Origin: Siphonodentalium dalli
Taxonomy: Eukaryota > Mollusca > Scaphopoda > Gadilida > Siphonodentaliidae
DNA: 64,000 nucleotides
Assembly (NCBI GenBank): GCA_032622095.1
Contig: CP136061.1
Location: 37,143,797-37,207,796 of the forward strand
Reading direction: 5' to 3'
Part shown: positions 1,904 through 64,000 of the stretch, one piece after another
Position numbering within the stretch: position 1 is the stretch's first letter
How the letters are laid out: every line of letters starts with the position of its first letter
Position numbers and translations under genes: made by a program
The notes under the pieces: model-generated
The model's database searches: none
What the model was told of the DNA's origin: nothing
What the model saw: only the letters and a program-made list of their open reading frames with translations

Positions 1904-2137
1904 AAATTGGGATACAATTTAGTTGATATTCATGTGTATATATGTTATTTAATGTATGTCATATATATATATATGTTAATGTTGAAATCACACGAACAAT
2001 TTAAATATCCGATGATCGTTAACAGGTCTATTGTAAATTCACGAAAAGGAAAATTGTATATTAACTATAGATTTGAGTATTGAAAGACTCCGCTCTATCT
2101 CCGATGGCCGCGGAATACTTATATTTATATAATTCCG

Positions 2138-14042: not shown

Positions 14043-14411
14043 CCCTTTACCCAACAAAACGGCCAAAAACGCCCAAATAAAGCTTCAACAGTCTAAAATA
14101 TCTTCGGTCTGTCTCAATAGAACCATACAAATATGGATATCATTGGAACCGGCTCCTTGACCACATTGTGATAGTTACAGTTATGCCCTGTGCCAATGCA
14201 TTCTCTTATATATGCGAGTCGACCATAGGTCGCCTCGCATATATAAGAGAATACATTGGCCTAAAAAACATTTTTTCTTACATTCTTTAACAATTTTATA
14301 ATTTTTAATGTGTTAAGCCAATGCATTCTCTTATATATGCGAGGCGACCTATGGTCGACTCGCATATATAAGAGAATGCATTGGCACAGGGCCGTTCTGT
14401 TGGGTAAAGGG
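14043..14411. mobile_element. piggyBac-like MITE (TTAA target) with two palindromes
   Basis: The element is bounded by TTAA at 14039-14042 and 14412-14415. The left end CCCTTTACCCAACAAAACGG is inverted on the right as CCGTTCTGTTGGGTAAAGGG. TTAA target duplication with CCC..GGG ends is the hallmark of piggyBac. It carries the 69-bp palindromes at 14192-14260 and 14317-14385 and encodes nothing. Confidence 0.8.
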
Positions 14412-29054: not shown

Positions 29055-30182
29055 TAATTATTATGTGCTTGCAAAATTCAACACTCGATTTAATGAGATT
29101 AAACTATAAACTATGTTTTATAATGTGTGCGGTTTATGTGTATAGTCGTGTAGTCCCAGTAATATGCCATATGTAAATATTTCGCTGCTTAAATGTAGGT
29201 GTCATTGAACTCTTGACAATTGTTTTGGTAGTTTTGAAATATTTTTCAAATGACTAATATTAACATGTACTGATATATGATTATAAGGAATGACTTGCTG
29301 GTTGATTGGGGTCATTGGTTTTGACCGGCAGGGTAGTTAAACAAAGTTCGTTTGAATCATTTTGGGATTCACACACTTTATTTAATTACTCTGCCGGTCA
29401 AAATCCAATGATCCCAATCGATCTGCAAGTCGTTCCTTGAGTAACGTATTTACCAAGCTAATTTATCCCCGGAACAACTGTTCTTAACATTAATATATGT
29501 GGTTCCGGCGTGTATGGGTGTGTTTATAAGTTATCTTTTCTGCGTATGTCCAACTTCGAATGTTGACCCCCCCCCCCCCCCCCCCCCCCCCCCCGAGTCC
29601 GATATGAAAGATCAAAAGTCTTATTTTCTCCATATTTGTTGTTGGAAATATCCACATTACTGTCTATATGCAGTCATCCAATGATGAGATGTCACATGTT
29701 AAAACATATGTTATGTAAACAGATCAGCAAATTAAGATCAATTTACAAATGGTAACAACAATAAATTAAACCAAAAAAAATTTCGACTTAACATTTGATT
29801 AGCTACTCCATTTGGCGATATGTATGGGATGACTGGCGTGTAACAGTACTGTTTACAAAAGAATGGTGCCAACATGCTATACATCGTCATCGGAGTTATC
29901 AGTATTGATAATAAAAAATACTTTTTCCATGTTAATTAATTTTGTTATATTTATTAAATATTTTTATTTTATTTTCCACATTTACTTGAACCCACTGCGA
30001 CTGCCTTGTGTCTCTTTTTAACTAGTTGGAATTTTTTACCATCAGTGCGGTCGATTACCATCCACTTCTCCCTATCCCCATGTCAGTGATAAAATGGAAT
30101 GACACATAAGAAACTCACGAACGCTCTTTTAATCAATTATCTCAAGACACCAACGAACTAGTTCAAAATGTCAGTCATCAGT
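29055..30182. other. Spacer between the two convergent Harbinger genes
   Basis: No gene. It contains the inverted repeat at 29285-29438, a run of about 28 C at 29567-29594, and AT-rich sequence where both transcripts must end. AATAAA-like motifs occur on the plus strand near 29760. Confidence 0.5.
29285..29438. repeat. Inverted repeat, arms about 57 bp, in the intergenic spacer
   Basis: AAGGAATGACTTGCTGGTTG at the left arm pairs with the inverse at the right (CTGCAAGTCGTTCCTT). Inner segments TTTTGACCGGCAGGGTA and TACTCTGCCGGTCAAAA also pair. The loop is about 40 bp. It may be an inserted small MITE or a structure between the 3' ends of the two genes. Confidence 0.8.
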
Positions 30183-31139
30183 TCAACAGTCTGGTGTACT
30201 AGGGGGTTGTACGTCCGTGGTGACACATGACTGTCCAGTCGGATAAACATTACCATTCTGCATTCCACTCAGAGAATTATAATTCGATGTGAACATAACA
30301 TTAGATCCTTGATTAGATTGTCCATTCATCGAAGATCCAACATTTGGATACGCTGGCACCGTCGGTCCGGAAATAAAAGTTGAAGGGAAACTTTGATTTC
30401 CTTGGAAATTTTGTAAATAGCTGCTGCTCTCTTCAAAATTATATACAGTGGTTTGTAGCAAAAACTTGAGTCTACGTCGCTTTTCTGCATCCGGACAACG
30501 CCTCAGGGCCATCGCGATGTCTCTACCAAACACATCACATTCATCCTCTTTCTGTGTAACATTATCGGCGATTGTAGCGAATGCCTGGGCTGCTGTGTCC
30601 ACCCATGACGTAGCACCACGCTTCCTTCTCACGTTGGATGTCGACGGTAGCGTCGATTGCACAGAACTGTTATCGTTTGTGTCATTACTGCTGGTAGCAG
30701 GCACATCAGCATCACCTGAAATACTATCCGAGATACTGGCTTGTGTTACATCGGAGTGGTCAGAAACGACGGTATTTGCACGTGTTTGTGGAATGTTAGA
30801 ATAAGTCCCTGGTCCGGTCCACAGACTTTCCTCCAGAAAAGAGCATTCCTCAAAAAACTTCCATTTTGGTACATATATATCTTTGGCAGCAACGCCGCTT
30901 TTCTTGCTTTTATTCACCTTTCTCACTTCCTCTCGATACATGGTCCTTAAACTCTGTATTTTACTCTTCAGTGATTTTTCCGATAAACCCGGAATAATCG
31001 TGGACAAAATTTCCAAAAGTTCGTTATAATCAGCTTTTTTCTTGTTTAGATCCTTGTATAAGTCGCTTTGTTTATTCCATATACTTTCTCTTATCTGCAT
31101 CGCTTCCAGCAATTCCGATACAGCTGCATCTGTCCACAT
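30183..31139 (-). CDS. Harbinger MADF/Myb-SANT-like DNA-binding protein
   Basis: A single-exon protein of 318 aa, read from the ATG at 31139. Residues about 4-105 form a MADF (Myb/SANT-like) domain: VSELLEAMQIRESIWNKQSD, then YNELLEILSTI, LKSKIQSLRTMYREE, and the closing WKFFEECSFLEE. The middle is Ser/Thr/Asn-rich and likely disordered. Residues about 205-245 (CDVFGRDIAMALRR and following) resemble a BESS-type interaction motif. In known Harbinger elements such a second protein binds the transposon ends and carries the transposase into the nucleus. Gene order and orientation inside the element support that role here. The frame is intact. Confidence 0.88.
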   Translation of the reverse strand: MWTDAAVSELLEAMQIRESIWNKQSDLYKDLNKKKADYNELLEILSTIIPGLSEKSLKSKIQSLRTMYREEVRKVNKSKKSGVAAKDIYVPKWKFFEECSFLEESLWTGPGTYSNIPQTRANTVVSDHSDVTQASISDSISGDADVPATSSNDTNDNSSVQSTLPSTSNVRRKRGATSWVDTAAQAFATIADNVTQKEDECDVFGRDIAMALRRCPDAEKRRRLKFLLQTTVYNFEESSSYLQNFQGNQSFPSTFISGPTVPAYPNVGSSMNGQSNQGSNVMFTSNYNSLSGMQNGNVYPTGQSCVTTDVQPPSTPDC

Positions 31140-31304
31140 GATGTTAGCCTAATTATGCGTAGAATTTAACGTCGCAAAATAAAACACGCAATTGGGGAAC
31201 TGACTTAATACGCGTGAAAATAATATAAGTAGATAAACATGTATTCAGCTCATATCAATAAAAACATGCCACTTGCATGATATGTGAGTGAATAGGTTCA
31301 AACA

Positions 31305-32429
31305 CAATTATGGACGATCGATCGTGCAATTTTATGTATCGTAGAGAATACAATGTGGCTAAACGTAATGAGTAGAGATCAGCCTTGGTGAAACGCAATG
31401 GGTTAATTGGTCAGTCGACTCACTGTGTGAATATGCGGTGGGCGACATGACTTCCTATGCCATATAAATTATGTTGGCCAATTGTCACCAAACTCCACCA
31501 TAATTAATTATCACACCTACTATGCCATCGAAACTGTGGTACGTGTGTCCGCAGCCAATTGGTCGTCATATTCCTGTGCCATAGCGAGACATGTCGCCCG
31601 CCGCACATTCACACAATGAGTCTTTTCCAAGCTCTATCAGCGTCGAGATCGACATCTCAATTATTTATTAACCGAATGTCTTGTCGCTGTTGATCGTTAC
31701 TCAACACGCAATTTATATTTTTAATGCTAACACACAAGACAATTCTGGACGATCGGTCGTGCAATTTTATGTATCGTAGAGAATACAATGTGGCTAAACG
31801 TAATGAGTAGAGATCAACCTTGGTGAAACTCAATGGGTTAATTGGTCAGTCGACTCACTGTGCGAATATGCGGCGCGCGACACGACTCCCTATGGCATAT
31901 AAATTATGTTGACCAATTGTCACCAAACTCTACCATAATTAATTGTCACACCTACTATGCCATCGCTACTGTGGTACGTGTGTCCGCAGCCAATTGGTCG
32001 TCATATTCCTGTGCCATAGCGAGACATGTCGCCCGCCGCACATTCACACAATGAGTCTTTTCCAAGCTCTATCAGCGTCGAGATCGACATCTCAATGGTT
32101 TATCAAACCGAATGTCTTGTCGCTGTTGATCGTTACTCAACACGCAATGTTATATTTTTAATGCTAACACACAATACAATTCTGGACGATCGGTCGTGCA
32201 ATTTTATGTATCGTAGAGAATACAATGTGGCTAAACGTAATGAGTAGAGATCAACCTTGGTGAAACTCAATGGGTTAATTGGTCAGTCGACTCACTGTGC
32301 GAATATGCGGCGCGCGACACGACTCCCTATGGCATATAAATTATGTTGACCAATTGTCACCAAACTCTACCATAATTAATTGTCACACCTACTATGCCAT
32401 CGCTACTGTGGTACGTGTGTCCGCAGCCA
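31305..32429. repeat. Tandemly repeated right subterminal region (about 435 bp)
   Basis: The phrase CAATGTGGCTAAACGTAATG occurs at 31351, 31786 and 32223, giving steps of 435 and 437 bp. Each full unit joins the left subterminal sequence (TTGGTCGTCATATTCCTGTG, as at 27119) to the inverted right end (...GTGTGTCCGCAGCC). The junction lies at a CCAATTGG palindrome. ORFs of 70-73 codons here are repeat artefacts. Confidence 0.8.
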
Positions 32430-33400: not shown

Positions 33401-35633
33401 TTAGCCTCACTCATGGCAAAATCAAAAGAAAACGACTGGCAACGATAACGACGCATGGAAGTTGTTTTGTCTCAGAGTGTACAATGTCTGTATATCCGGT
33501 AGTTCGATCCTGTGTGTGTCGACCTTTATTGTCCGGCTATCATAGTATGTATATGTATATATCACATGAAACCCTTATATTATTATATCATTAAAAGAAG
33601 CCATAAAATATTTCCTTATCTCTCACAAGTTATGAATAGGCGCGTGCCACATATCAATTGGCAGCGCGCCAACAAAATGACCACGCCGCGTCTTTACATT
33701 GATCCAGGCTGAGTAATACTATTTCGAAATGCCGCAAATGACACAAACACACGACAATGCAAAATTATTGCTTTGTTTATTAAAGTCATATTATTGTCCA
33801 AGTGTGTTGCACTAACGAAAATAGACTTTAAAAGAGGCACATTGGTGGACTATATTTTCCGTTGCCATCCCCAGAGCGCAATAGTGAAGCGTCTCAGTCT
33901 CAGTCAATGTATGCATTTTGAATTGGTTTCTTTTAAGGATTTTGATCTAGTTGCAGTCAAATTCTGCCAGGATATACCTTCATTGTTGTCAAAAAAGCCA
34001 ACGTCCCAAAAAAAAGCCATCTCGATTCGGGGACGTGGGGTCAGGGACCTTTTATAATCTTTAAACTAGATCCTATATCCCATGCCTTTTTTATAAGTCG
34101 GATTTCTAATTCCAGTGTGAGGTGGCCTCTAGATTAGAACGGCCCTAGGTTCCTGTTGTTAGCCGATGTATAGTTCCAAGTACGCATTGTTACACGCTGC
34201 ACTATATTTGTTGGCTCAATTCAAAAATATTATTTCTATCCTTTCATTTCATTATCAACTTGGGGGCTATTGCAAACAACATCGTGCATTGCTGGCTGTG
34301 GACCGATCTTAATTTGTTTGAACTGTTTGAATAGTTATGTTTGATTCCGAAATTCGATCAATATTTGCATCGAGAACGGAGTATTTATAAGCGCGATTGA
34401 TATGCATCGTGGGATCCGCCTTCATATGAGACGGCTGCCTCAGGATGCAAGGTAAGCGTCGCGTTACGATAACGGCAAGGTTGAACGGACAAGGATATGT
34501 TTTTTTCAAATTGATATACACATGTTAAATACATAGGTACGTTATATGCCATAATATATATACATATTCCGCTTTTAGCGATTGTGCATGTGCGAGGGGT
34601 TGTAACGTGTACCCTTCACACCAATGTCGTGATTATATATACACTTTCGTTGCTTACATGCATGCGACTGGCGACTAGAATGAGACTGGGTCTGTGCTTG
34701 AGTCAAACTTTCTCTACGTGCATGTAGACACGGGTTTTTCTATTTCTAAAACAGTCTTTCCCAACTCTGTGAGTGTGCGTGAATGGATTGTTCACCAACG
34801 CTTATTTAATAGTTTGATATGGTCATCCGAAAATTGGCTGAAAATGTAGATAAATATTTAACTTTTTAATGCAAGTTTAATGTACCTGAAGTATATAAGC
34901 AAATATTTTACTCTTGAATACACATAGTATACCATAAATATTGCTTTGAAAATTGAACTATCGGAACTATGTCACTCGATATTCCAGTCATAAATTTCCA
35001 GACTTTTACCAATTATGTGATAGTTTAACCAGGGTATATGGAAAGTGTGGTAATATACCTCAAAACCCTGACTTTCAATTGCTGCTGTTTCGATGCATAA
35101 ACATTTGAAAGAAGAGCATCATTAAGGCGTGGTAAAATACGTCCGTTAGCCATTTCGAATTGTACACTACCGCAAAATACAAAAACAATTTGAGCTTACA
35201 AAGAATGTCATAGATTCATAGTATACCAGTAATTCCAATTCCAAAATGCGGTCAAATTCAAAGTCGAAAAAGGGCCGTAACTCATGTGAACATAATTGGA
35301 CAGAACCCACATTCGAACTTTTGGCCTTATTTTTAGATGGGAAACACGCATACCGCAGCTGTCAAAAATATCACTATAGTCATTTTATATTTTCAGATCT
35401 TACGCCAGTGATATGGATATTTAAACATTCTCAAGTTGGCGCTGACGAAGAGACCGAAACGAATCGTTATTTGTTTGTAAGATAAGCGTATCAATATCAT
35501 AGATATTTACATGCCATAATGTATAACTCCACGAGATAACCGCAATTAACAGGGTGATATATCATATGAACTGTACCGGTCACCAAGTACATATTAAGTA
35601 CAATATGACCACGTGACTTGTGGTTACGTAATA
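33401..35633. other. Non-coding region upstream of the 35.6-kb gene
   Basis: No gene is supported. ORFs at 33512-33712, 33773-34057 and 35246-35485 lack recognisable domains. An upstream exon of the 35.6-kb gene could lie here, but I found no convincing splice signals. Confidence 0.35.
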
Positions 35634-36347
35634 ATGTACCAAATAAAAGGAAAGAAGTTAGATTCTACAGTCGCTACAGTGAAAAATCTCAGAAAACAGA
35701 GAGATTTGGACGAGGAGCTGATGCACATACAAGAGAAATGGTACGAACAACTGAAAGACATCACGAGGCAAAAGTTGGATCTATTAAGGGATATCGGAAA
35801 GTTTGACATGGCGAAACGACGAGTTCATCACTTCCGTGGTGACATAACTTCCGACGAGCTGAGAAGTGTGGTGAATACAAATAGAAATAGCATGCAAAAT
35901 GACAAGGAAGAGAGATTGATGAAAAAGTGGGAATTCAAACCGGATCCTGTCGACAAGCTTGCATTCGATTTGCCAGCAGTTGACCCGGACACGGCTGGGT
36001 ACATCATGCCTCCGCTACGAGCCATTAATATTAAAAACAATCTCAGTCATTTACCCATGTTAAAACGATGGGGTTCAGATCCGGGTTTGGCGAAACGAAC
36101 TAAATCGGATAACCCTTTTCAATCCGAACAAAGAGTTCGTACAAAACATCATAGTTTACCTGGTTCACGGAATTGGGATAGATGGAACGCTAACAATATG
36201 AAGTTTAAAGAAAGGGGAGATGACTGTGTCAAATACTCAGTCCCTTCGCTCTTACCTGAAAACATTATGTTCAAAAAGGCACAGAGCGAGAACATACCTT
36301 ATTCCAAAAAGAGACCAATCACTCTACCGCCATTAAAGGAACGCTAA
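35634..36347 (+). CDS. Hypothetical coiled-coil protein, 237 aa
   Basis: This frame looks like a real host gene. It has a balanced composition, no repeat overlap, and clear protein-like segments. The start is the ATG at 35634 (A at -3); a stop at 35595-35597 precedes it and no earlier ATG is in frame. Residues about 14-65 are a charged coiled coil (KNLRKQRDLDEELMHIQEKW). The middle is Pro/Asp-rich (FKPDPVDKLAFDLPAVDP), and the basic C-terminal half ends PITLPPLKER. No signal peptide, membrane segment or known catalytic motif is seen. I do not recognise the family. It could be a single-exon gene or the last exon of a longer one; an AG at 35597-35598 could be an acceptor. Confidence 0.6.
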   Translation: MYQIKGKKLDSTVATVKNLRKQRDLDEELMHIQEKWYEQLKDITRQKLDLLRDIGKFDMAKRRVHHFRGDITSDELRSVVNTNRNSMQNDKEERLMKKWEFKPDPVDKLAFDLPAVDPDTAGYIMPPLRAINIKNNLSHLPMLKRWGSDPGLAKRTKSDNPFQSEQRVRTKHHSLPGSRNWDRWNANNMKFKERGDDCVKYSVPSLLPENIMFKKAQSENIPYSKKRPITLPPLKER

Positions 36348-39485: not shown

Positions 39486-39924
39486 CCCTTTGAGTGCCAC
39501 GGGCCGATCTCATCGGCCCTAATTTACGTTCTGTAAAATCGGCCCTAAACAAAATAAAAAATAAAAACAAACATTTTTTTTTAGATTTTTTTTTTTTTTT
39601 TGGTTGATTTTTTTTTAGTATGCTTAAGCATGCTATAGGGCATGTTATAACTCAAAACTATCACCAAGTATTCATAGTAATAAGTTTGATGCCCATGAAA
39701 AACGTAAGATTCCCTGGCCCTAAACCTACAAAATAAGACTGTTAAAGAATATAAGAAACAATTATTAAAATTGTAAAAAATAATAACAAATGATGAAAAA
39801 TTGTTAGGCCAATGCATTCTCTTATATATGCGAGGCGACCTATGGTCGACTCGCATATATAAGAGAATGCATTGGCACAGGGTATATGGGTTTATACAAA
39901 AAATCGGACCTGGCACTCAAAGGG
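39486..39924. mobile_element. piggyBac-like MITE (TTAA, CCCTTTGAGTGCCA ends)
   Basis: The left end is CCCTTTGAGTGCCACGG and the right end is TGGCACTCAAAGGG, flanked by TTAA at 39482-39485 and 39925-39928. The terminal motif and target are those of piggyBac-type elements. A small GGGCCGAT/ATCGGCCC hairpin lies near the left end. One 69-bp palindrome copy is at 39808-39876. Confidence 0.85.
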
Positions 39925-45014: not shown

Positions 45015-45498
45015 AAAGAAATAAACACCGTAATGGAGTGGAAGATCATGCCATGCATCTCTACTATGACTAACGCTCTTAGAGATCATAATCCACCTGT
45101 ATAAAACCCCGGAACGTTTTGATGTTGTGACAGATAATATATTTATTGGTTACTTCATGTTCCTTAATAATGTACTTCACTGTAGGTGAAGGTCCCAACC
45201 CGAAATTGCACGATTTAAGTGACATGTGAGCAATTTTGCTTTGCCCGCTCTGTGGAATTTATCCTGGTAATTATTGCGATATCGGCTCACAAAAGTCACA
45301 AAAACATGCAAGCTCGAGCTGGGACAACCCCCTAATGTAAAGTAGAGTATTTATATTAGGAACAAGTATTAACAAAGAAATGTTTGTTTGTTTGTTCAAT
45401 GTTATAAAGTTCCATGTCAGAACGGGTCAGAATATCAAAAAGTTCCCAGGTTTTGTGCTGTTGAAATACGATATATACGGACATAAGCCGGAGTAGGG
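45015..45498. other. Left flank of the satellite
   Basis: No gene recognised. On the minus strand the satellite frame runs out of the last monomer into a 25-residue non-repeat tail ending at a stop at 45427. No polyadenylation signal or splice donor was convincing. Confidence 0.4.
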
Positions 45499-48400
45499 AT
45501 TCATGACATGATATAACGAGGTGGCTGCCGTTTCCTGTAAGTTACCTTGTTGGCTAGTTGACAGGGACGTGGCTCGATTCATGACATGATATAACGAGGT
45601 GGCTGCCGTTTCCTGTAAGTTACCTTGTTGGCTAGTTGACAGGGATGTGGCTCGATTCATGACATGATATAACGGGGTGGCTGCCGTTTCCTGTAAGTTA
45701 CCTTGTTGGCTAGTTGACAGGGATGTGGCTCGATTCATGACATGATATAACGGGGTGGCTGCCGTTTCCTGTAAGTTACCTTGTTGGCTAGTTGACAGGG
45801 ATGTGGCTCGATTCATGACATGATATAACGAGGTGGCTGCCGTTTCCTGTAAGTTACCTTGTTGGCTAGTTGACAGGGATGTGGCTCTATTCATGACATG
45901 ATATAACGGGGCGGCTGTCGTTTCCTGTAAGTTACCTTGTTGGCTAGTTGACAGGGATGTGGCTCTATTCATGACATGATATAACGGGGTGGCTGCCGTT
46001 TCCTGTAAGTTACCTTGTTGGCTAGTTGACAGGGATGTGGCTCGATTCATGACATGATATAACGAGGTGGCTGCCGTTTCCTGTAAGTTACCTTGTTGGC
46101 TAGTTGACAGGGATGTGGCTCGATTCATGACATGATATAACGAGGTGGCTGCCGTTTCCTGTAAGTTACCTTGTTGGCTAGTTGACAGGGATGTGGCTCT
46201 ATTCATGACATGATATAACGGGGTGGCTGCCGTTTCCTGTAAGTTACCTTGTTGGCTAGTTGACAGGGATGTGGCTCTATTCATGACATGATATAACGGG
46301 GTGGCTGCCGTTTCCTGTAAGTTACCTTGTTGGCTAGTTGACAGGGATGTGGCTCGATTCATGACATGATATAACGAGGTGGCTGCCGTTTCCTGTAAGT
46401 TACCTTGTTGGCTAGTTGACAGGGATGTGGCTCGATTCATGACATGATATAACGAGGTGGCTGCCGTTTCCTGTAAGTTACCTTGTTGGCTAGTTGACAG
46501 GGATGTGGCTCTATTCATGACATGATATAACGGGGTGGCTGCCGTTTCCTGTAAGTTACCTTGTTGGCTAGTTGACAGGGATGTGGCTCGATTCATGACA
46601 TGATATAACGAGGTGGCTGCCGTTTCCTGTAAGTTACCTTGTTGGCTAGTTGACAGGGATGTGGCTCGATTCATGACATGATATAACGAGGTGGCTGCCG
46701 TTTCCTGTAAGTTACCTTGTTGGCTAGTTGACAGGGATGTGGCTCGATTCATGACATGATATAACGGGGCGGCTCTCGATTCCTGTAAGTTACCTTGTTG
46801 GCTAGTTGACAGGGATGTGGCTCGATTCATGACATGATATAACGGGGTGGCTGCCGTTTCCTGTAAGTTACCTTGTTGGCTAGTTGACAGGGATGTGGCT
46901 CGATTCATGACATGATATAACGGGGTGGCTGCCGTTTCCTGTAAGTTACCTTGTTGGCTAGTTGACAGGGATGTGGCTCGATTCATGACATGATATAACG
47001 GGGTGGCTGCCGTTTCCTGTAAGTTACCTTGTTGGCTAGTTGACAGGGATGTGGCTCGATTCATGACATGATATAACGGGGTGGCTGCCGTTTCCTGTAA
47101 GTTACCGTGTTGGCTAGTTGACAGGGATGTGGCTCGATTCATGACATGATATAACGGGGTGGCTGCCGTTTCCTGTAAGTTACCTTGTTGGCTAGTTGAC
47201 AGGGATGTGGCTCGATTCATGACATGATATTACGGGGTGGCTGCCGTTTCCTGTAAGTCACCTTGTTGACTAGTTGACAGGGATGTGGCTCTATTCATGA
47301 CATGATATTACGGGGTGGCTGTCGTTTCCTGTAAGTTACCTTGTTGGCTAGTTGACAGGGATGTGGCTCGATTCATGACATGATATTACGGGGTGGCTGC
47401 CGTTTCCTGTAAGTTACCGTGTTGGCTAGTTGACAGGGATGTGGCTCGATTCATGACATGATATAACGGGGTGGCTGTCGTTTCATGGAAGTTACCTTGT
47501 TGGCTAGTTGACAGGGATGTGGCTCGATTCATGACATGATATAACGGGGTGGCTGTCGTTTCCTGTAAGTTACATTTCTGGCTAGTTGACAGGGATGTGG
47601 CTCGATTCATGACATGATATAACGGGGTGGCTGCCGTTTCATGGAAGTTACATTGTTGGCTAGTTGACAGGGATGTGGCTCGATTCATGACATGATATAA
47701 CGGGGTGGCTGTCGTTTCCTGTAAGTTACCTTGTTGGCTAGTTGACAGGGATGTGGCTCGATTCATGACATGATATAACGGGGTGGCTGCCGTTTCATGG
47801 AAGTTACCTTGTTGGCTAGTTGACAGGGATGTGGCTCGATTCATGACATGATATAACGGGGTGGCTGCCGTTTCCTGTAAGTTACCTTGTTAGCTAGTTG
47901 ACAGGGATGTGGCTCGATTCATGACATGATATAACGGGGTGGCTGCCGTTTCCTGTAAGTTACCTTGTTGGCTAGTTGACAGGGATGTGGCTCGATTCAT
48001 GACATGATATAACGGGGTGGCTGCCGATTCATGGAAGTTACATTGTTGGCTAGTTGACAGGGATGTGGCTCGATTCATGACATGATATAACGGGGTGGCT
48101 GCCGATTCCTGTAAGTTACATTGTTGGCTAGTTGACAGGGATGTGGCTCGATTCATGACATGATATAACGGGGTGGCTGCAGTTTCATGGAAGTTACCTT
48201 GTTGGCTAGTTGACAGGGATGTGGCTCGATTCATGACATGATATAACGGGGTGGCTGCCGATTCATGGAAGTTACATTGTTGGCTAGTTGACAGGGATGT
48301 GGCTCGATTCATGACATGATATAACGGGGTGGCTGCCGATTCATGGAAGTTACATTGTTGGCTAGTTGACAGGGATGTGGCTCGATTCATGACATGATAT

Positions 48401-51400
48401 AACGGGGTGGCTGCCGATTCATGGAAGTTACATTGTTAGCTAGTTGACAGGGATGTGGCTCGATTCATGACATGATATAACGGGGTGGCTGCCGATTCAT
48501 GGAAGTTACATTGTTGGCTAGTTGACAGGGATGTGGCTCGATTCATGACATGATATAACGGGGTGGCTGCCGTTTCATTGAAGTTACCTTGTTGGCTAGT
48601 TGACAGGGATGTGGCTCGATTCATGACATGATATAACGAGGTGGCTGCCGTTTCCTGTAAGTTACATTGTTGGCTAGTTGACAGGGATGTGGCTCGATTC
48701 ATGACATGATATAACGGGGTGGCTGCCGTTTCATGGAAGTTACCTTGTTGGCTAGTTGACAGGGATGTGGCTCGATTCATGACATGATATAACGGGGTGG
48801 CTGCCGATTCATGGAAGTTACATTGTTGGCTAGTTGACAGGGATGTGGCTCGATTCATGACATGATATAACGGGGTGGCTGCCGATTCATGGAAGTTACC
48901 TTGTTGGCTAGTTGACAGGGATGTGGCTCGATTCATGACATGATATAACGGGGTGGCTGCCGTTTCATGGAAGTTACATTGTTGGCTAGTTGACAGGGAT
49001 GTGGCTCGATTCATGACATGATATAACGGGGTGGCTGCCGATTCATGGAAGTTACATTGTTGGCTAGTTGACAGGGATGTGGCTCGATTCATGACATGAT
49101 ATAACGAGGTGGCTGCCGTTTCCTGTAAGTTACATTTCTGGCTAGTTGACAGGGATGTGGCTCGATTCATGACATGATATAACGGGGTGGCTGCCGTTTC
49201 CTGTAAGTTACATTGTTGGCTAGTTGACAGGGATGTGGCTCGATTCATGACATGATATAACGAGGTGGCTGCCGTTTCCTGTAAGTTACATTGTTGGCTA
49301 GTTGACAGGGATGTGGCTCGATTCATGACATGATATAACGGGGTGGCTGCCGTTTCCTGTAAGTTACCTTGTTGGCTAGTTGACAGGGATGTGGCTCGAT
49401 TCATGACATGATATAACGGGGTGGCTGCCGATTCATGGAAGTTACATTGTTGGCTAGTTGACAGGGATGTGGCTCGATTCATGACATGATATAACGGGGT
49501 AGCTGCCGTTTCCTGTAAGTTACCTTGTTGGCTAGTTGACAGGGATGTGGCTCGATTCATGACATGATATAACGGGGTGGCTGCCGATTCATGGAAGTTA
49601 CCTTGTTGGCTAGTTGACAGGGATGTGGCTCGATTCATGACATGATATAACGGGGTGGCTGCCGATTCCTGTAAGTTACCTTGTTAGCTAGTTGACAGGG
49701 ATGTGGCTCGATTCATGACATGATATAACGGGGTGGCTGCCGATTCATGGAAGTTACATTGTTGGCTAGTTGACAGGGATGTGGCTCGATTCATGACATG
49801 ATATAACGGGGTGGCTGCCGTTTCGTGGAAGTTACCTTGTTGGCTAGTTGACAGGGATGTGGCTCGATTCATGACATGATATAACGGGGTGGCTGCCGTT
49901 TCCTGTAAGTTACCTTGTTGGCTAGTTGACAGGGATGTGGCTCGATTCATGACATGATATAACGGGGTGGCTGCCGTTTCCTGTAAGTTACCTTGTTGGC
50001 TAGTTGACAGGGATGTGGCTCGATTCATGACATGATATAACGGGGTGGCTGCCGTTTCCTGTAAGTTACATTGTTGGCTAGTTGACAGGGATCTGGCTTG
50101 ATTCATGACATGATATAACGGGGCGGCTGCCGTTTCATGGAAGTTACCTTGTTGGCTAGTTGACAGGGATCTGGCTTGATTCATGACATGATATAACGGG
50201 GTGGCTGCCGTTTCCTGTAAGTTACCTTGTTGGCTAGTTGACAGGGATGTGGCTCGATTCATGACATGATATAACGGGGTGGCTGCCGTTTCCTGTAAGT
50301 TACCTTGTTGGCTAGTTGACAGGGATGTGGCTCGATTCATGACATGATATAACGGGGTGGCTGCCGTTTCCTGTAAGTTACCTTGTTGGCTAGTTGACAG
50401 GGATGTGGCTCGATTCATGACATGATATAACGGGGTGGCTGCCGTTTCCTGTAAGTTACCTTGTTGGCTAGTTGACAGGGATGTGGCTCGATTCATGACA
50501 TGATATAACGGGGTGGCTGCCGTTTCCTGTAAGTTACCTTGTTGGCTAGTTGACAGGGATGTGGCTCGATTCATGACATGATATAACGAGGTGGCTGCCG
50601 TTTCCTGTAAGTTACCTTGTTGGCTAGTTGACAGGGATGTGGCTCGATTCATGACATGATATAACGGGGTGGCTGCCGTTTCCTGTAAGTTACCTTGTTG
50701 GCTAGTTGACAGGGATGTGGCTCGATTCATGACATGATATAACGGGGTGGCTGCCGTTTCCTGTAAGTTACCTTGTTGGCTAGTTGACAGGGATGTGGCT
50801 CGATTCATGACATGATATAACGGGGTGGCTGTCGATTCCTGTAAGTTACCTTGTTGGCTAGTTGACAGGGATGTGGCTCGATTCATGACATGATATAACG
50901 GGGTGGCTGCCGTTTCCTGTAAGTTACCTTGTTGGCTAGTCGACAGGGATGTGGCTCGATTCATGACATGATATAACGGGGTGGCTGTCGATTCCTGTAA
51001 GTTACCTTGTTGGCTAGTTGACAGGGATGTGGCTCGATTCATGACATGATATAACGGGGTGGCTGCCGATTCCTGTAAGTTACCTTGTTGGCTAGTTGAC
51101 AGGGATGTGGCTCGATTCATGACATGATATAACGGGGTGGCTGCCGATTCCTGTAAGTTACCTTGTTGGCTAGTCGACAGGGATGTGGCTCGATTCATGA
51201 CATGATATAACGGGGTGGCTGTCGATTCCTGTAAGTTACCTTGTTGGCTAGTCGACAGGGATGTGGCTCGATTCATGACATGATATAACGGGGTGGCTGT
51301 CGATTCCTGTAAGTTACCTTGTTGGCTAGTTGACAGGGATGTGGCTCGATTCATGACATGATATAACGGGGTGGCTGCCGATTCCTGTAAGTTACCTTGT

Positions 51401-54400
51401 TGGCTAGTTGACAGGGATGTGGCTCGATTCATGACATGATATAACGGGGTGGCTGCCGATTCCTGTAAGTTACCTTGTTGGCTAGTTGACAGGGATGTGG
51501 CTCGATTCATGACATGATATAACGGGGTGGCTGCCGTTTCATGGAAGTTACCTTGTTGGCTAGTTGACAGGGATGTGGCTCGATTCATGACATGATATAA
51601 CGGGGTGGCTGCCGATTCCTGTAAGTTACCTTGTTGGCTAGTCGACAGGGATGTGGCTCGATTCATGACATGATATAACGGGGTGGCTGCCGATTCCTGT
51701 AAGTTACCTTGTTGGCTAGTCGACAGGGATGTGGCTCGATTCATGACATGATATAACGGGCGGCTGCCGATTCCTGTAAGTTACCTTGTTGGCTAGTTGA
51801 CAGGGATGTGGCTCTATTCATGACATGATATAACGGGGTGGCTGCCGATTCCTGTAAGTTACCTTGTTGGCTAGTCGACAGGGATGTGGCTCGATTCATG
51901 ACATGATATAACGGGGTGGCTGCCGATTCCTGTAAGTTACCTTGTTGGCTAGTTGACAGGGATGTGGCTCGATTCATGACATGATATAACGGGGTGGCTG
52001 CCGTTTCATGGAAGTTACCTTGTTGGCTAGTTGACAGGGATGTGGCTCGATTCATGACATGATATAACGGGGTGGCTGCCGATTCCTGTAAGTTACCTTG
52101 TTGGCTAGTTGACAGGGATGTGGCTCGATTCATGACATGATATAACGGGGTGGCTGCCGTTTCATGGAAGTTACCTTGTTGGCTAGTTGACAGGGATGTG
52201 GCTCGATTCATGACATGATATAACGGGGTGGCTGCCGATTCCTGTAAGTTACCTTGTTGGCTAGTTGACAGGGACGTGGCTCGATTCATGACATGATATA
52301 ACGGGGTGGCTGCCGTTTCATGGAAGTTACCTTGTTGGCTAGTTGACAGGGATGTGGCTCGATTCATGACATGATATAACGGGGTGGCTGCCGATTCCTG
52401 TAAGTTACCTTGTTGGCTAGTTGACAGGGATGTGGCTCGATTCATGACATGATATAACGGGGTGGCTGCCGTTTCCTGTAAGTTACCTTGTTGGCTAGTT
52501 GACAGGGATGTGGCTCGATTCATGACATGATATAACGGGGTGGCTGTCGTTTCCTGTAAGTTACCTTGTTGGCTAGTTGACAGGGATGTGGCTCGATTCA
52601 TGACATGATATAACGAGGTGGCTGCCGTTTCCTGTAAGTTACCTTGTTGGCTAGTTGACAGGGATGTGGCTCGATTCATGACATGATATAACGGGGTGGC
52701 TGCCGTTTCCTGTAAGTTACCTTGTTGGCTAGTTGACAGGGATGTGGCTCGATTCATGACATGATATTACGGGGTGGCTGCCGTTTCCTGTAAGTTACCT
52801 TGTTGGCTAGTTGACAGGGATGTGGCTCGATTCATGACATGATATAACGGGGTGGCTGCCGTTTCCTGTAAGTTACCTTGTTGGCTAGTTGACAGGGATG
52901 TGGCTCGATTCATGACATGATATAACGGGGTGGCTGCCGTTTCCTGTAAGTTACCTTGTTTGCTAGTTGACAGGGATGTGGCTCGATTCATGACATGATA
53001 TAACGGGGTGGCTGCCGTTTCATGGAAGTTACTTTGTTGGCTAGTTGACAGGGATGTGGCTCGATTCATGACATGATATAACGGGGTGGCTGCCGTTTCC
53101 TGTAAGTTACCTTGTTGGCTAGTTGACAGGGATGAGGCTCGATTCATGACATGATATAACGGGGTGGCTGCCGTTTCCTGTAAGTTACCTTGTTGGCTAG
53201 TTGACAGGGATGTGGCTCGATTCATGACATGATATAACGGGGTGGTTGCCGTTTCCGGTAAGTTACCTTGTTGGCTAGTTGACAGGGATGTGGCTCGATT
53301 CATGACATGATATAACGGGGTGGCTGCCGTTTCATGGAAGTTACATTGTTGGCTAGTTGACAGGGATGTGGCTCGATTCATGACATGATATAACGGGGTG
53401 GCTGCCGTTTCCTGTAAGTTACATTGTTGGCTAGTTGACAGGGACGTGGCTCGATTCATGACATGATATAACGGGGTGGCTGCCGTTTCCTGTAAGTTAC
53501 CTTGTTGGCTAGTTGACAGGGATGTGGCTCGATTCATGACATGATATAACGAGGTGGCTGCCGTTTCCTGTAAGTTACCTTGTTGGCTAGTTGACAGGGA
53601 TGTGGCTCGATTCATGACATGATATAACGGGGTGGCTGCCGTTTCCTGTAAGTTACCTTGTTGGCTAGTTGACAGGGATGTGGCTCGATTCATGACATGA
53701 TATTACGGGGTGGTTGCCGTTTCCGGTAAGTTACCTTGTCGGCTAGTTGACAGGGATGTGGCTCGATTCATGACATGATATAACGGGGTGGCTGCCGTTT
53801 CATGGAAGTTACCTTGTTGGCTAGTTGACAGGGATGTGGCTCGATTCATGACATGATATAACGGGGTGGCTGCCGTTTCCTGTAAGTTACCTTGTTGGCT
53901 AGTTGACAGGGATGTGGCTCGATTCATGACATGATATAACGGGGTGACTGCCGTTTCCTGTAAGTTACCTTGTTGGCTAGTTCACAGGGATGTGGCTCGA
54001 TTCATGACATGATATAACGGGGTGACTGCCGTTTCCTGTAAGTTACCTTGTTGGCTAGTTGACAGGGACGTGGCTCGATTCATGACATGATATAACGGGG
54101 TGGCTGCCGTTTCCTGGAAGTTACCTTGTTGGCTAGTTGACAGGGATGTGGCTCGATTCATGACATGATATAACGGGTGGCTGCCGTTTCCTGTAAGTTA
54201 CCTTGTTGGCTAGTTGACAGGGATGTGGCTCGATTCATGACATGATATAACGGGGTGACTGCCGTTTCCTGTAAGTTACCTTGTTGGCTAGTTGACAGGG
54301 ATGTGGCTCGATTCATGACATGATATAACGGGGTGGCTGCCGTTTCCTGTAAGTTACCTTGTTGGCTAGTTGACAGGGATGAGGCTCGATTCATGACATG

Positions 54401-55235
54401 ATATAACGGGGTGACTGCCGTTTCCTGTAAGTTACCTTGTTGGCTAGTTGACAGGGACGTGGCTCGATTCATGACATGATATAACGGGGTGGCTGCCGTT
54501 TCCTGTAAGTTACCTTGTTGGCTAGTTGACAGGGATGTGGCTCGATTCATGACATGATATTACGAGGTGGCTGCCGTTTCCTGTAAGTTACCTTGTTGGC
54601 TAGTTGACAGGGATGTGGCTCGATTCATGACATGATATAACGGGGTGGCTGCCGTTTCCTGTAAGTTACCTTGTTGGCTAGTTGACAGGGACGTGGCTCG
54701 ATTCATGACATGATATAACGGGGTGGCTGCCGTTTCCTGTAAGTTACCTTGTTGGCTAGTTGACAGGGATGTGGCTCGATTCATGACATGATATAACGGG
54801 GTGGCTGCCGTTTCCTGTAAGTTACCTTGTTGGCTAGTTGACAGGGACGTGGCTCGATTCATGACATGATATAACGGGGTGGCTGCCGTTTCCTGTAAGT
54901 TACCTTGTTGGCTAGTTGACAGGGATGTGGCTCTATTCATGGCATGATATAACGGGGTGGCTGCCGTTTCCTGTAAGTTACCTTGTTGGCTAGTTGACAG
55001 GGATGTGGCTCGATTCATGACATGATATAACGGGGTGGCTGCCGTTTCATGGAAGTTACTTTGTTGGCTAGTTGACAGGGATGTGGCTCGATTCATGACA
55101 TGATATAACGGGGTGGCTGCCGTTTCCTGTAAGTTACCTTGTTGGCTAGTTGACAGGGATCTGGCTCGATTCATGACATGATATAACGGGGTGGCTGCCG
55201 TTTCATGGAAGTTACCTTGTTAGCTAGTTGACAGG

Positions 55236-57809
55236 GATGTGGCTCGATTCATGACATGATATAACGGGGTGGCTGCCGTTTCCTGTAAGTTACCTTGTTG
55301 GCTAGTTGACAGGGATGTGGCTCTATTCATGACATGATATAACGGGGTGGCTGCCGTTTCCTGTAAGTTACCTTGTTGGCTAGTTGACAGGGATGTGGCT
55401 CGATACATGACATGATATAACGGGGTGGCTGCCGTTTCCTGTAAGTTACCTTGTTGGCTAGTTGACAGGGATGTGGCTCGATTCATGACATGATATAACG
55501 GGGTGGCTGCCGTTTCCTGTAAGTTACCTTGTTGGCTAGTTGACAGGGATGTGGCTCGATTCATGACATGATATAACGGGGTGGCTGCCGTTTCCTGTAA
55601 GTTACCTTGTTGGCTAGTTGACAGGGATGTGGCTCGATTCATGACATGATATAACGGGGTGGCTGCCGTTTCCTGTAAGTTACCTTGTTGGCTAGTTGAC
55701 AGGGATGTGGCTCGATTCATGACATGATATAACGGGGTGGCTGCCGTTTCCTGTAAGTTACCTTGTTGGCTAGTTGACAGGGATGTGGCTCGATTCATGA
55801 CATGATATAACGGGGTGGCTGCCGTTTCCTGTAAGTTACCTTGTTAGCTAGTTGACAGGGATGTGGCTCGATTCATGACATGATATAACGGGGTGGCTGT
55901 CGTTTCCTGTAAGTTACCTTGTTGGCTAGTTGACAGGGATGTGGCTCGATTCATGACATGATATAACGGGGTGGCTGCCGTTTCCTGTAAGTTACCTTGT
56001 TGGCTAGTTGACAGGGATGTGGCTCGATTCATGACATGATATAACGGGGCGGCTGCCGATTCATGGAAGTTACATTGTTGGCTAGTTGACAGGGATGTGG
56101 CTCGATTAATGACATGATATAACGGGGCGGCTGTCGATTCCTGTAAGTTACCTTGTTGGCTAGTTGACAGGGATGTGGCTCGATTCATGACATGATATAA
56201 CGGGGTGGCTGCCGTTTCCTGTAAGTTACCTTGTTGGCTAGTTGACAGGGATGTGGCTCTATTCATGACATGATATAACGGGGTGACTGTCGTTTCCTGT
56301 AAGTTACCTTGTTGGCTAGTTGACAGGGATGTGGCTCGATTCATGACATGATATAACGGGGCGGCTGCCGATTCATGGAAGTTACATTGTTGGCTAGTTG
56401 ACAGGGATGTGGCTCGATTAATGACATGATATAACGGGGCGGCTGTCGATTCCTGTAAGTTACCTTGTTGGCTAGTTGACAGGGATGTGGCTCGATTCAT
56501 GACATGATATAACGGGGTGGCTGCCGTTTCCTGTAAGTTACCTTGTTGGCTAGTTGACAGGGATGTGGCTCGATTCATGACATGATATAACGGGGTGGCT
56601 GCCGTTTCCTGTAAGTTACCTTGTTGGCTAGTTGACAGGGATGTGGCTCGATTCATGACATGATATAACGGGGTGGCTGTCGTTTCCTGTAAGTTACCTT
56701 GTTGGCTAGTTGACAGGGATGTGGCTCGATTCATGACATGATATAACGAGGTGGCTGCCGTTTCCTGTAAGTTACCTTGTTGGCTAGTTGACAGGGATGT
56801 GGCTCGATTCATGACATGATATAACGGGGTGGCTGCCGTTTCCTGTAAGTTACCTTGTTGGCTAGTTGACAGGGATGTGGCTCGATTCATGACATGATAT
56901 AACGGGGTGGCTGCCGTTTCCTGTAAGTTACCTTGTTGGCTAGTTGACAGGGATGTGGCTCGATTCATGACATGATATAACGGGGTGGCTGTCGATTCCT
57001 GTAAGTTACCTTGTTGGCTAGTTGACAGGGATGTGGCTCGATTCATGACATGATATAACGGGGTGGCTGCCGTTTCCTGTAAGTTACCTTGTTGGCTAGT
57101 CGACAGGGATGTGGCTCGATTCATGACATGATATAACGGGGTGGCTGTCGATTCCTGTAAGTTACCTTGTTGGCTAGTTGACAGGGATGTGGCTCGATTC
57201 ATGACATGATATAACGGGGTGGCTGCCGATTCCTGTAAGTTACCTTGTTGGCTAGTTGACAGGGATGTGGCTCGATTCATGACATGATATAACGGGGTGG
57301 CTGCCGATTCCTGTAAGTTACCTTGTTGGCTAGTCGACAGGGATGTGGCTCGATTCATGACATGATATAACGGGGTGGCTGTCGATTCCTGTAAGTTACC
57401 TTGTTGGCTAGTTGACAGGGATGTGGCTCGATTCATGACATGATATAACGGGGTGGCTGCCGATTCCTGTAAGTTACCTTGTTGGCTAGTTGACAGGGAT
57501 GTGGCTCGATTCATGACATGATATAACGGGGTGGCTGCCGATTCCTGTAAGTTACCTTGTTGGCTAGTCGACAGGGATGTGGCTCGATTCATGACATGAT
57601 ATAACGGGGTGGCTGTCGATTCCTGTAAGTTACCTTGTTGGCTAGTCGACAGGGATGTGGCTCGATTCATGACATGATATAACGGGGTGGCTGTCGATTC
57701 CTGTAAGTTACCTTGTTGGCTAGTTGACAGGGATGTGGCTCGATTCATGACATGATATAACGGGGTGGCTGCCGATTCCTGTAAGTTACCTTGTTGGCTA
57801 ATTGACAGG
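55236..57809. repeat. Higher-order unit, 33 monomers (2,574 bp), copy 1
   Basis: Diagnostic variants recur exactly 2,574 bp later: CTCTATTCAT at 55321 and 57895; CGATACATGA at 55401 and 57975; the stop-forming TTAGCTAG near 55845 and 58419; GGGGCGGCTGCCGATTC near 56045 and 58619; and GCTAATTGAC near 57798 and 60372. Outside these limits the variant order no longer matches. Confidence 0.85.
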
Positions 57810-60383
57810 GATGTGGCTCGATTCATGACATGATATAACGGGGTGGCTGCCGTTTCCTGTAAGTTACCTTGTTGGCTAGTTGACAGGGATGTGGCTCTAT
57901 TCATGACATGATATAACGGGGTGGCTGCCGTTTCCTGTAAGTTACCTTGTTGGCTAGTTGACAGGGATGTGGCTCGATACATGACATGATATAACGGGGT
58001 GGCTGCCGTTTCCTGTAAGTTACCTTGTTGGCTAGTTGACAGGGATGTGGCTCGATTCATGACATGATATAACGGGGTGGCTGCCGTTTCCTGTAAGTTA
58101 CCTTGTTGGCTAGTTGACAGGGATGTGGCTCGATTCATGACATGATATAACGGGGTGGCTGCCGTTTCCTGTAAGTTACCTTGTTGGCTAGTTGACAGGG
58201 ATGTGGCTCGATTCATGACATGATATAACGGGGTGGCTGCCGTTTCCTGTAAGTTACCTTGTTGGCTAGTTGACAGGGATGTGGCTCGATTCATGACATG
58301 ATATAACGGGGTGGCTGCCGTTTCCTGTAAGTTACCTTGTTGGCTAGTTGACAGGGATGTGGCTCGATTCATGACATGATATAACGGGGTGGCTGCCGTT
58401 TCCTGTAAGTTACCTTGTTAGCTAGTTGACAGGGATGTGGCTCGATTCATGACATGATATAACGGGGTGGCTGCCGTTTCCTGTAAGTTACCTTGTTGGC
58501 TAGTTGACAGGGATGTGGCTCGATTCATGACATGATATAACGGGGTGGCTGCCGTTTCCTGTAAGTTACCTTGTTGGCTAGTTGACAGGGATGTGGCTCG
58601 ATTCATGACATGATATAACGGGGCGGCTGCCGATTCATGGAAGTTACATTGTTGGCTAGTTGACAGGGATGTGGCTCGATTAATGACATGATATAACGGG
58701 GCGGCTGTCGATTCCTGTAAGTTACCTTGTTGGCTAGTTGACAGGGATGTGGCTCGATTCATGACATGATATAACGGGGTGGCTGCCGTTTCCTGTAAGT
58801 TACCTTGTTGGCTAGTTGACAGGGATGTGGCTCTATTCATGACATGATATAACGGGGTGACTGTCGTTTCCTGTAAGTTACCTTGTTGGCTAGTTGACAG
58901 GGATGTGGCTCGATTCATGACATGATATAACGGGGCGGCTGCCGATTCATGGAAGTTACATTGTTGGCTAGTTGACAGGGATGTGGCTCGATTAATGACA
59001 TGATATAACGGGGCGGCTGTCGATTCCTGTAAGTTACCTTGTTGGCTAGTTGACAGGGATGTGGCTCGATTCATGACATGATATAACGGGGTGGCTGCCG
59101 TTTCCTGTAAGTTACCTTGTTGGCTAGTTGACAGGGATGTGGCTCGATTCATGACATGATATAACGGGGTGGCTGCCGTTTCCTGTAAGTTACCTTGTTG
59201 GCTAGTTGACAGGGATGTGGCTCGATTCATGACATGATATAACGGGGTGGCTGTCGTTTCCTGTAAGTTACCTTGTTGGCTAGTTGACAGGGATGTGGCT
59301 CGATTCATGACATGATATAACGAGGTGGCTGCCGTTTCCTGTAAGTTACCTTGTTGGCTAGTTGACAGGGATGTGGCTCGATTCATGACATGATATAACG
59401 GGGTGGCTGCCGTTTCCTGTAAGTTACCTTGTTGGCTAGTTGACAGGGATGTGGCTCGATTCATGACATGATATAACGGGGTGGCTGCCGTTTCCTGTAA
59501 GTTACCTTGTTGGCTAGTTGACAGGGATGTGGCTCGATTCATGACATGATATAACGGGGTGGCTGTCGATTCCTGTAAGTTACCTTGTTGGCTAGTTGAC
59601 AGGGATGTGGCTCGATTCATGACATGATATAACGGGGTGGCTGCCGTTTCCTGTAAGTTACCTTGTTGGCTAGTCGACAGGGATGTGGCTCGATTCATGA
59701 CATGATATAACGGGGTGGCTGTCGATTCCTGTAAGTTACCTTGTTGGCTAGTTGACAGGGATGTGGCTCGATTCATGACATGATATAACGGGGTGGCTGC
59801 CGATTCCTGTAAGTTACCTTGTTGGCTAGTTGACAGGGATGTGGCTCGATTCATGACATGATATAACGGGGTGGCTGCCGATTCCTGTAAGTTACCTTGT
59901 TGGCTAGTCGACAGGGATGTGGCTCGATTCATGACATGATATAACGGGGTGGCTGTCGATTCCTGTAAGTTACCTTGTTGGCTAGTTGACAGGGATGTGG
60001 CTCGATTCATGACATGATATAACGGGGTGGCTGCCGATTCCTGTAAGTTACCTTGTTGGCTAGTTGACAGGGATGTGGCTCGATTCATGACATGATATAA
60101 CGGGGTGGCTGCCGATTCCTGTAAGTTACCTTGTTGGCTAGTCGACAGGGATGTGGCTCGATTCATGACATGATATAACGGGGTGGCTGTCGATTCCTGT
60201 AAGTTACCTTGTTGGCTAGTCGACAGGGATGTGGCTCGATTCATGACATGATATAACGGGGTGGCTGTCGATTCCTGTAAGTTACCTTGTTGGCTAGTTG
60301 ACAGGGATGTGGCTCGATTCATGACATGATATAACGGGGTGGCTGCCGATTCCTGTAAGTTACCTTGTTGGCTAATTGACAGG
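57810..60383. repeat. Higher-order unit, 33 monomers (2,574 bp), copy 2
   Basis: Tandem partner of the previous block with the same order of variants. It ends at the GCTAATTGAC monomer near 60372; from about 60425 the variants differ from the start of copy 2. Confidence 0.85.
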
Positions 60384-61951
60384 GATGTGGCTCGATTCAT
60401 GACATGATATAACGGGGTGGCTGCCGATTCCTGTAAGTTACCTTGTTGGCTAGTTGACAGGGATGTGGCTCGATTCATGACATGATATAACGGGGTGGCT
60501 GCCGTTTCCTGTAAGTTACCTTGTTGGCTAGTTGACAGGGATGTGGCTCGATTCATGACATGATATAACGGGGTGGCTGCCGATTCCTGTAAGTTACCTT
60601 GTTGGCTAGTCGACAGGGATGTGGCTCGATTCATGACATGATATAACGAGGTGGCTGCCGTTTCCTGTAAGTTACCTTGTTGGCTAGTTGACAGGGATGT
60701 GGCTCGATTCATGACATGATATAACGGGCGGCTGCCGATTCCTGTAAGTTACCTTGTTGGCTAGTTGACAGGGATGTGGCTCTATTCATGACATGATATA
60801 ACGGGGTGGCTGCCGATTCCTGTAAGTTACCTTGTTGGCTAGTCGACAGGGATGTGGCTCGATTCATGACATGATATAACGGGGTGGCTGCCGATTCCTG
60901 TAAGTTACCTTGTTGGCTAGTTGACAGGGATGTGGCTCGATTCATGACATGATATAACGGGGTGGCTGTCGTTTCCTGTAAGTTACCTTGTTGGCTAGTT
61001 GACAGGGATGTGGCTCGATTCATGACATGATATAACGAGGTGGCTGCCGTTTCCTGTAAGTTACCTTGTTGGCTAGTTGACAGGGATGTGGCTCGATTCA
61101 TGACATGATATAACGGGGTGGCTGCCGTTTCCTGTAAGTTACCTTGTTGGCTAGTTGACAGGGATGTGGCTCGATTCATGACATGAAATAACGGGGTGGC
61201 TGCCGTTTCCTGTAAGTTACCTTGTTGGCTAGTTGACAGGGATGTGGCTCGATTCATGACATGATATAACGGGGTGGCTGCCGTTTCCTGTAAGTTACCT
61301 TGTTGGCTAGTTGACAGGGATGTGGCTCGATTCATGACATGATATAACGGGGTGGCTGCCGTTTCCTGTAAGTTACCTTGTTGGCTAGTTGACAGGGATG
61401 TGGCTCGATTCATGACATGATATAACGGGGTGGCTGCCGTTTCCTGTAAGTTACCTTGTTGGCTAGTTGACAGGGATGTGGCTCGATTCATGACATGATA
61501 TAACGGGGTGGCTGCCGTTTCCTGTAAGTTACATTGTTGGCTAGTTGACAGGGATGTGGCTCGATTCATGACATGATATTACGGGGTGGCTGCCGTTTCC
61601 TGTAAGTTACCTTGTTAGCTAGTTGACAGGGATGTGGCTCGATTCATGACATGATATAACGGGGTGGCTGCCGTTTCCTGTAAGTTACCTTGTTGGCTAG
61701 TTGACAGGGATGTGGCTCGATTCATGACATGATATAACGGGGTGGCTGCCGTTTCATGGAAGTTACCTTGTTAGCTAGTTGACAGGGATGTGGCTCGATT
61801 CATGACATGATATAACGGGGTGGCTGCCGTTTCCTGTAAGTTACCTTGTTGGCTAGTTGACAGGGATGTGGCTCGATTCATGACATGATATAACGGGGTG
61901 GCTGTCGATTCATGGAAGTTACCTTGTTGGCTAGTTGACAGGGATGTGGCT

Positions 61952-62636
61952 ACATTGCCCGATATATATCCGTTGATTAAAGGACATGTGGACGATGTGG
62001 TACTCACAGAGGGTAATATGAGCATGAGACAACGTGTATAATAGATAGACTTTGTTCATATATTGCTAAATTTTCTATGATGAGACATCGCGCGTTGAAA
62101 TATTCATTGCTGATAAAAACCATGCATAAAGGTCCACAGTACAGGAGGTCAAATCATTGAAACGTATTTCAGAAAAGACAGTCGCCACTCGATTGCTATA
62201 TTTCGGAAATAATTTCAAATTAGTTTTGCATTGAAAATGAACCCAATGACCTATTGGCGAGCACGCACTGAGAATTATTATAGTGATCGTTGATTGGTTA
62301 AACCTGCATCACGCGTATTTTGTATAGGTTGGAATTTTAAGAATCGGTTCAGGCGTTTGTGAATTATGGCTAGTAGTGAGGAGGCATCTGGAAAAGTAAA
62401 CTCCCATTGTTACGCATAGTATTGCGAAGCGATTTTGAAAGTGGCTCGCTCGATTTATATTTAATTATTTTTAAATTTATATTTTACTCGTTTGACGGGT
62501 GGTGGGCTTGGGGAGGTTTGGGGTACGCTCTTTAAAAACACTTCTTCAAATATTTCCGTTATTTCGTCAAAAACACTTCTTCAAATATCTCCGTTATTTA
62601 GTTAATAAAAATATTTTCTTATTTTAGGATCACATA
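61952..62636. other. Right flank of the satellite
   Basis: No gene is supported. On the minus strand an ATG at 62025 opens 24 non-repeat residues (MLILPSVSTTSST...) that run in frame into the first monomers, but a stop follows at about 61771. Two similar 25-bp phrases AACACTTCTTCAAATAT occur at 62537 and 62571. Confidence 0.45.
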
Positions 62637-62696
62637 TCAAAATGAGAGGATATGGTGATCCCCTTTTCGTGGGATCACCATATCCTCTCATTTTGA
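62637..62696. repeat. Perfect hairpin, 26-bp arms
   Basis: The left arm from 62637 starts TCAAAATGAGAGGATATGGT; the right arm 62671-62696 is its exact inverse; the loop is 8 bp (CTTTTCGT). Nearby GAGGATCACATAT phrases recur at 62626, 62742 and 62778. Confidence 0.92.
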
Positions 62697-62839
62697 AAAA
62701 TGATCCTGCCTTCATTGAGCCACGAGTTACTCCTGAGACGAGGATCACATATTATATGATACCCTATCCTACGGAGGATCACATATTGTTTGATATCTAC
62801 TCAGGGATGTGGCTAGAGGGTCTCCCTTGGGAATTTCCA

Positions 62840-63180: not shown

Positions 63181-64000
63181 ACCGACAACAGACCAGGAAA
63201 CACCGGGCCGACCATGGTTGTTCGGCCCGGTGTGAGAAAATTTTGAAAACTATACAAGTAAATCGCAAATCCTAGCATCAAGACTGGCCTCAACTGAAGC
63301 TTTCCTAGTGTTGGAAATTTCAAACCTCATACTCCCCGTCAGGTTGGAAAATTCTTCAACTGATGACCATTTATGTCTACAAGTTTGACCAAATGTAGTA
63401 AAATATTGTTTTGCTAAACTAATTAGCAGTTTTTGTATTGGCCATGTGAATGGGGCAATGACACACCGGGCCGACCATGGTTCGGCCCGGTGTGTAAAAA
63501 TTTTGAAATCTGAACAAGAAAATCGCAAAATCCTAACATCTAGACTAGCCTCAAGCCTTCCTACTGTTCGAAATTTCAAACCCTACACCCCCACTTAGGT
63601 TGGAAATTTTCCAACTGATGACAATTCCAATGACAATTTTGACCAATTGTATGACAATATTGTTTTCTTAAATTAACTAGAAGTTTTTGACTGGCCACGG
63701 GGGAGAGACCAGGACACAAGCTTTCCAAGTGTTGGAAATTTCCAACCTGTCACCCCCCTAAGGTTGGAAAATTTCCAACTGATGACAATTTCTGTCAAAA
63801 TTTTTGACCAAAAATAGGAACATATGCAAATATTGGTTGAAAAACAATAAATTCCCCCAATAAATTGTTTTATAATCAAACTACAAGAACATTTTCAACC
63901 TATTGTTGGTGTGAAATTTCGTTGTGGCAGGTATGAAATTTCCAACTATTGAAAATATAGCTCTCTGCTGGGGGGGGGGTGAGACACGGGGGGGGGGGGT
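63181..64000 (+). repeat. Approximately 270-bp tandem repeat with GC-rich hairpins, array leaves the window
   Basis: Units share AAATCGCAAATCCTA, AGTGTTGGAAATTTC and AGGTTGGAAAATT-CAACTGATGAC. They recur from about 63227, 63490 and 63715. The first two are preceded by hairpins CACCGGGCCGACCATGG-TTCGGCCCGGTG (63201-63233, 63461-63495). No ORF is convincing. The right end lies beyond the window. Confidence 0.75.

Follow-up and report, generated by a model that had tools for sequence, protein, structure and literature searches.

Eukaryotic short-monomer satellites and long minisatellites are built from head-to-tail monomers of high identity, which become homogenized locally and amplified in blocks. 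Unequal crossing-over and gene conversion are named among the means of this amplification and homogenization in a review (PMC5615363), which also describes higher-order repeats, i.e. blocks of several monomers that are copied as a unit. Satellites can also be connected to mobile elements. The genome of the Pacific oyster Crassostrea gigas, for instance, commonly carries Helitron/satellite hybrids (PMC8268682). Furthermore, a monomer of 78 bp is reported for the plant satellite PSAT5 of Petunia, whose GC content amounts to about 40% (PMC10587573). The locus analyzed here is an array of 211 monomers of 78 bp in a 64-kb window, i.e. the whole stretch of Siphonodentalium dalli DNA under study, within which all positions are counted. 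It shares the head-to-tail order, the high identity, the local homogenization and the block amplification with other eukaryotic satellites, whereas its monomer sequence was unmatched in the collections searched and it represents one locus seen within this window. Like the higher-order repeats of the review, it contains a multi-monomer block (33 monomers) that was copied as a unit; however, it has one tandem block duplication and lacks the regular higher-order period. The agreement with PSAT5 is known for the monomer length alone, and the GC content of the monomer differs with 49%. The array is real and ordinary, and it is explained by known array dynamics.

TRF reported a single array at 45498..61951 (no strand was assigned to it or to its parts given below) with a period of 78, 211.0 copies, 97% matches, 0% indels and a score of 30647. 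A wrap-around alignment against the TRF consensus resolved 211 head-to-tail monomers with zero inserted bases, of which monomers 81, 112 and 196 each have a 1-bp deletion; the mean pairwise identity of the monomers is 96.6%. The first monomer starts at 45498 and the last one at 61875, which corresponds to 61875 - 45498 = 16377 = 210 x 78 - 3. The original prediction of a satellite with exactly this spacing, in which three 1-bp deletions account for the missing bases, is confirmed by the alignment. It had placed the array at 45499-61951, of which the end agrees with our result, whereas the start is 1 base off or reflects another rotation of the unit. Hence, the locus displays the long head-to-tail run of near-identical non-coding monomers that defines a satellite. 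Its ends are sharp: one base is missing at the final array position, which makes the last monomer 1 bp short, and degenerate monomers were not found at the left end. As to the previous suggestion of an array being part of a larger locus, both ends are contained in the window, and 2 kb of flank on either side are free of more monomers except for a 16-base fragment. This isolated monomer fragment (62802..62817, plus strand, 15/16 match) is situated about 850 bp past the array end and scored 27 compared to at most 25 in 200 shuffles, but stands out in one of four flank-by-strand tests; its possible relation to the array is unproven. The same flank harbors a hairpin at 62626-62707 with arms of 37 nt that are 92% complementary, and a stretch at 63197-63529 with a GC-rich palindrome in two copies about 260 bp apart.

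Regarding the origin of the monomer, a 29-base string taken from it gave 0 exact matches in viral and genome contig collections, neither of which is meant for eukaryotes, and six shorter strings (15-18 bases, from three places of the monomer plus their complements) had no match in the literature searched. Publications dealing with 78-bp repeats that were screened did not identify it either. Such negative searches say little for a eukaryotic satellite, and a new satellite family is plausible.

The internal structure of the array bears the marks of unequal exchange. Monomers 126-158 (55246..57819) equal monomers 159-191 (57820..60393), which represents a tandem duplication of 33 monomers with one difference in 2574 bp. 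Additional copied blocks were found at larger distances. The block of monomers 66-73 (50568..51191) reappears in monomers 145-152 (lag 79) and 178-185 (lag 112) with a run score of 9.4, and monomers 71-75 recur at 153-157 and 186-190, the latter at lag 115 (score 7.1). Altogether, runs of identical monomer types at lags 33, 79, 82, 112 and 115 reached scores from 31.2 to 7.1, compared to 5.8 for the best and 4.9 for the next best run shown among 100 shuffles of the monomer order; weaker runs at lag 4 (5.4) and between monomers 81-83 and 196-198 at lag 115 (5.3) stayed below the best shuffle. In addition to these copied blocks, neighboring monomers are more similar to each other, as is characteristic of the concerted evolution of satellites: shuffled arrays gave a mean monomer difference of 2.66 and the actual order one of 2.09-2.20 for lags 1-4 and of 2.76-2.91 for lags 19-28, and 29 of the 210 adjacent pairs are identical (18.5 when shuffled). 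Moreover, all four combinations are present in 35 of the 91 pairs that can be formed from 14 variants, each found in at least 4 monomers, which points to exchange within single monomers or to changes that arose repeatedly. A regular higher-order period across the array was not detected; in the range of lags 1-59, lag 33 is the sole prominent one apart from the short lags, owing to the one block duplication. The duplication history of this satellite array can be read monomer by monomer, while its significance beyond annotation is little.

The variation among the monomers gives a similar picture. Substitution variants had been regarded as abundant, which holds true for the 320 substituted cells in all 211 monomers; however, these cells comprise just 37 substitution types, and most of them are probably copies of few older changes. 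The monomers fall into 63 haplotypes, and 57 of the 211 are identical to the consensus. Variable positions (35 of 78) were compared with a simulated random placement of 39 types, two gap types among them, which gave a mean of 30.8, and the longest invariant stretch of 7 positions is not longer than under this placement. Because the substitutions are spread across the unit and the invariant runs are no longer than expected, the monomer has no section of conspicuous conservation.

Collectively, our data make it very likely that the locus is a non-coding satellite (long minisatellite) array, which was expanded by unequal exchange or other out-of-register copying. The observed pattern is what unequal exchange combined with conversion usually produces, as outlined in the review mentioned above (PMC5615363). 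In such a scenario, a unique 78-bp stretch would have been duplicated at the start, and the array would have grown by out-of-register exchange involving single monomers up to blocks of about 33 monomers. This exchange would gain or lose whole monomers and thereby preserve the 78-bp period, and it could have carried few substitutions into many monomers. The array is probably young, hence, few 1-bp indels would have occurred so far, among them a recurrent one in a run of four G, and it presumably lacks a function. The type counts of substitutions and indels given below agree with this reading, whereas the lack of degenerate monomers at the left end and the isolated 16-base fragment speak against it.

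Among the alternatives, it is conceivable, though rather unlikely, that the assembly process contributed to the array length or to the 33-monomer duplication. Assemblers can duplicate or collapse repeats such as the 2574-bp block with its one difference, and the three deletions sit in a homopolymer run. However, the many haplotypes are locally clustered and further blocks exist at other lags, which indicates that most of the array is truly resolved, and the window is free of Ns.

Considerably less probable is the view that the array forms the tandem-repeat core within a mobile element, comparable to the short satellite arrays carried by bivalve Helitrons or Helentrons. The hybrids in the oyster genome speak for this view, as does the presence of transposon genes and palindromic repeats in the window. 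A LINE-like element at 344-5015 was recognized by the Pfam domains of its separate ORFs, encoding a GDSL esterase (344-1903), an endonuclease (2138-2800) and a reverse transcriptase (3075-5015). Domain matches at 28011-31139 point to a DDE_Tnp_4 transposase on the plus strand and a MADF-domain protein on the minus strand, a pair typical of PIF/Harbinger elements. From these transposon types the genome was judged to be animal-like, and the array shares with the oyster hybrids its setting as a tandem repeat in transposon-bearing, probably animal DNA. However, the left and right flanks of the array show no significant similarity to each other, neither direct nor inverted, when 300 bp or 2 kb were compared (four tests, P 0.20-0.99). 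Moreover, the array with its 211 monomers is far longer than the element-borne arrays of one oyster family, which comprise about six monomers on average according to PMC8268682.

Still slightly less credible is a length constraint, for example by nucleosome phasing or by protein binding at a fixed spacing, which would purge monomers bearing indels; nucleosome phasing was proposed because two monomers correspond to 156 bp. The original prediction had called indels nearly absent, and this is correct in so far as zero insertions and three 1-bp deletions exist. All three deletions cut the same GGGG run to GGG. In monomer 81 (51738..51814, 77 bp) the deletion is accompanied by T25C and T34A, which are absent from monomer 112 (54155..54231, 77 bp). 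Since monomer 196 (60706..60782, 77 bp) has the same haplotype as monomer 81 and the two following monomers agree as well, one of these two deletions has probably been copied from the other. Therefore, 1-2 indel events have to be compared with at least 37 substitution events. The other repeats of the window served as control and contain 104 mismatches and 13 gap openings in 10 alignment rows or repeat pairs (identity at least 88%, length at least 100 bp), a small set with partly overlapping rows in which transposon copies are mixed with tandem repeats. Its ratio of 104:13 predicts about 4.6 indel types beside the 37 substitution types, whereas 1-2 were observed. Nevertheless, the difference is not significant when types are compared (37:2 vs 104:13, Fisher P 0.36; 37:1, P 0.19), also not after omitting the poly-C row (92:10) and additionally two overlapping rows (70:7) from the control (P 0.27-0.72). 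The comparison of cell counts (320:3 vs 104:13) gave P 5e-6, using 208 of the 211 monomers with 316 cells as the three deletion monomers were left out. This value reproduces the impression of the original prediction, but it was set aside: the cells, being mostly probable copies, are not independent, and a comparison with three deletions must not treat them as separate events. The lesson is that variants in homogenized arrays need to be counted by event and not by cell, although substitution types are a lower bound on events, and indels would be rarer than concluded here if many of the substitutions were recurrent. The scarcity of indels is thus not an anomaly by type counts (P 0.19-0.36) and requires no special explanation.

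The least probable alternative is a repetitive gene, former or present, in which the minus strand encodes a 26-residue repeat and the reading frame held the length constant. Indeed, the consensus has one fully open frame out of six (minus strand, 26 residues), ORFs on this strand extend up to 842 aa, and the open frame runs on into the right flank. However, 89% of 1000 shuffled units had a fully open frame as well, and the frame in the array is interrupted by 16 nonsense cells (types G55A, A18T and G63C) and three frameshifts; coming from the right flank, the frame already meets the G55A stop in monomer 209, the third one on its way. The 842-aa translation matched the Pfam family RNase_J_C with 25.0 bits (1.2 above the cut-off of 23.8; E 4e-5), with no single stretch passing alone, and a 597-aa translation reached 23.7 bits, just under the same cut-off. 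This score is a sum of weak repeated matches and was taken as chance. The substitution types comprise 27 non-synonymous, 7 synonymous and 3 nonsense changes compared to 24.9, 10.1 and 2.0 expected without constraint, and the proportion of synonymous changes is not different from the chance expectation (P 0.36). With an open frame expected by chance, a frame that was not kept, no synonymous excess and no protein constraint, both a former repetitive gene, as suggested in the original prediction, and a repetitive coding exon were rejected.

A satellite bearing a ribozyme or another structured RNA was rejected, too. Neither the whole window at gathering score nor the region 45400-45970 at E values up to 1 gave an Rfam match, and the search for RNA families, tRNA and folds revealed nothing convincing. 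Among four folds, one 150-base stretch of the minus strand had a z of -2.78 against plain shuffles, but minus-strand folds were unexceptional when the shuffled units used for comparison were themselves repeated 2 or 3 times (z -1.36 and -0.95, respectively).

Some smaller observations were made in the array and in the remaining window. The monomer includes the donor-like hexamer GTAAGT, which is retained in 175 of the 211 monomers; from its sequence it may be regarded as a candidate splice donor motif. A 435-bp tandem repeat with 2.6 copies is situated at 31304-32429, and parts of it appear again at 23.5-24.2 kb and 26.9-27.3 kb. The stop-to-stop ORF at 35598-36347 (249 aa) had no significant Pfam match (best E 0.14) and is possibly a host exon. 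Finally, a near-perfect palindrome of about 70 bp exists in seven copies at 7740-7836, 8015-8111, 9094-9190, 9287-9383, 14172-14268, 14297-14393 and 39788-39884 (97 nt in register, 69-97% identical to the reference copy). Several copies form inverted pairs with arms that are 97-99% complementary, and this family looks like a palindromic miniature element.
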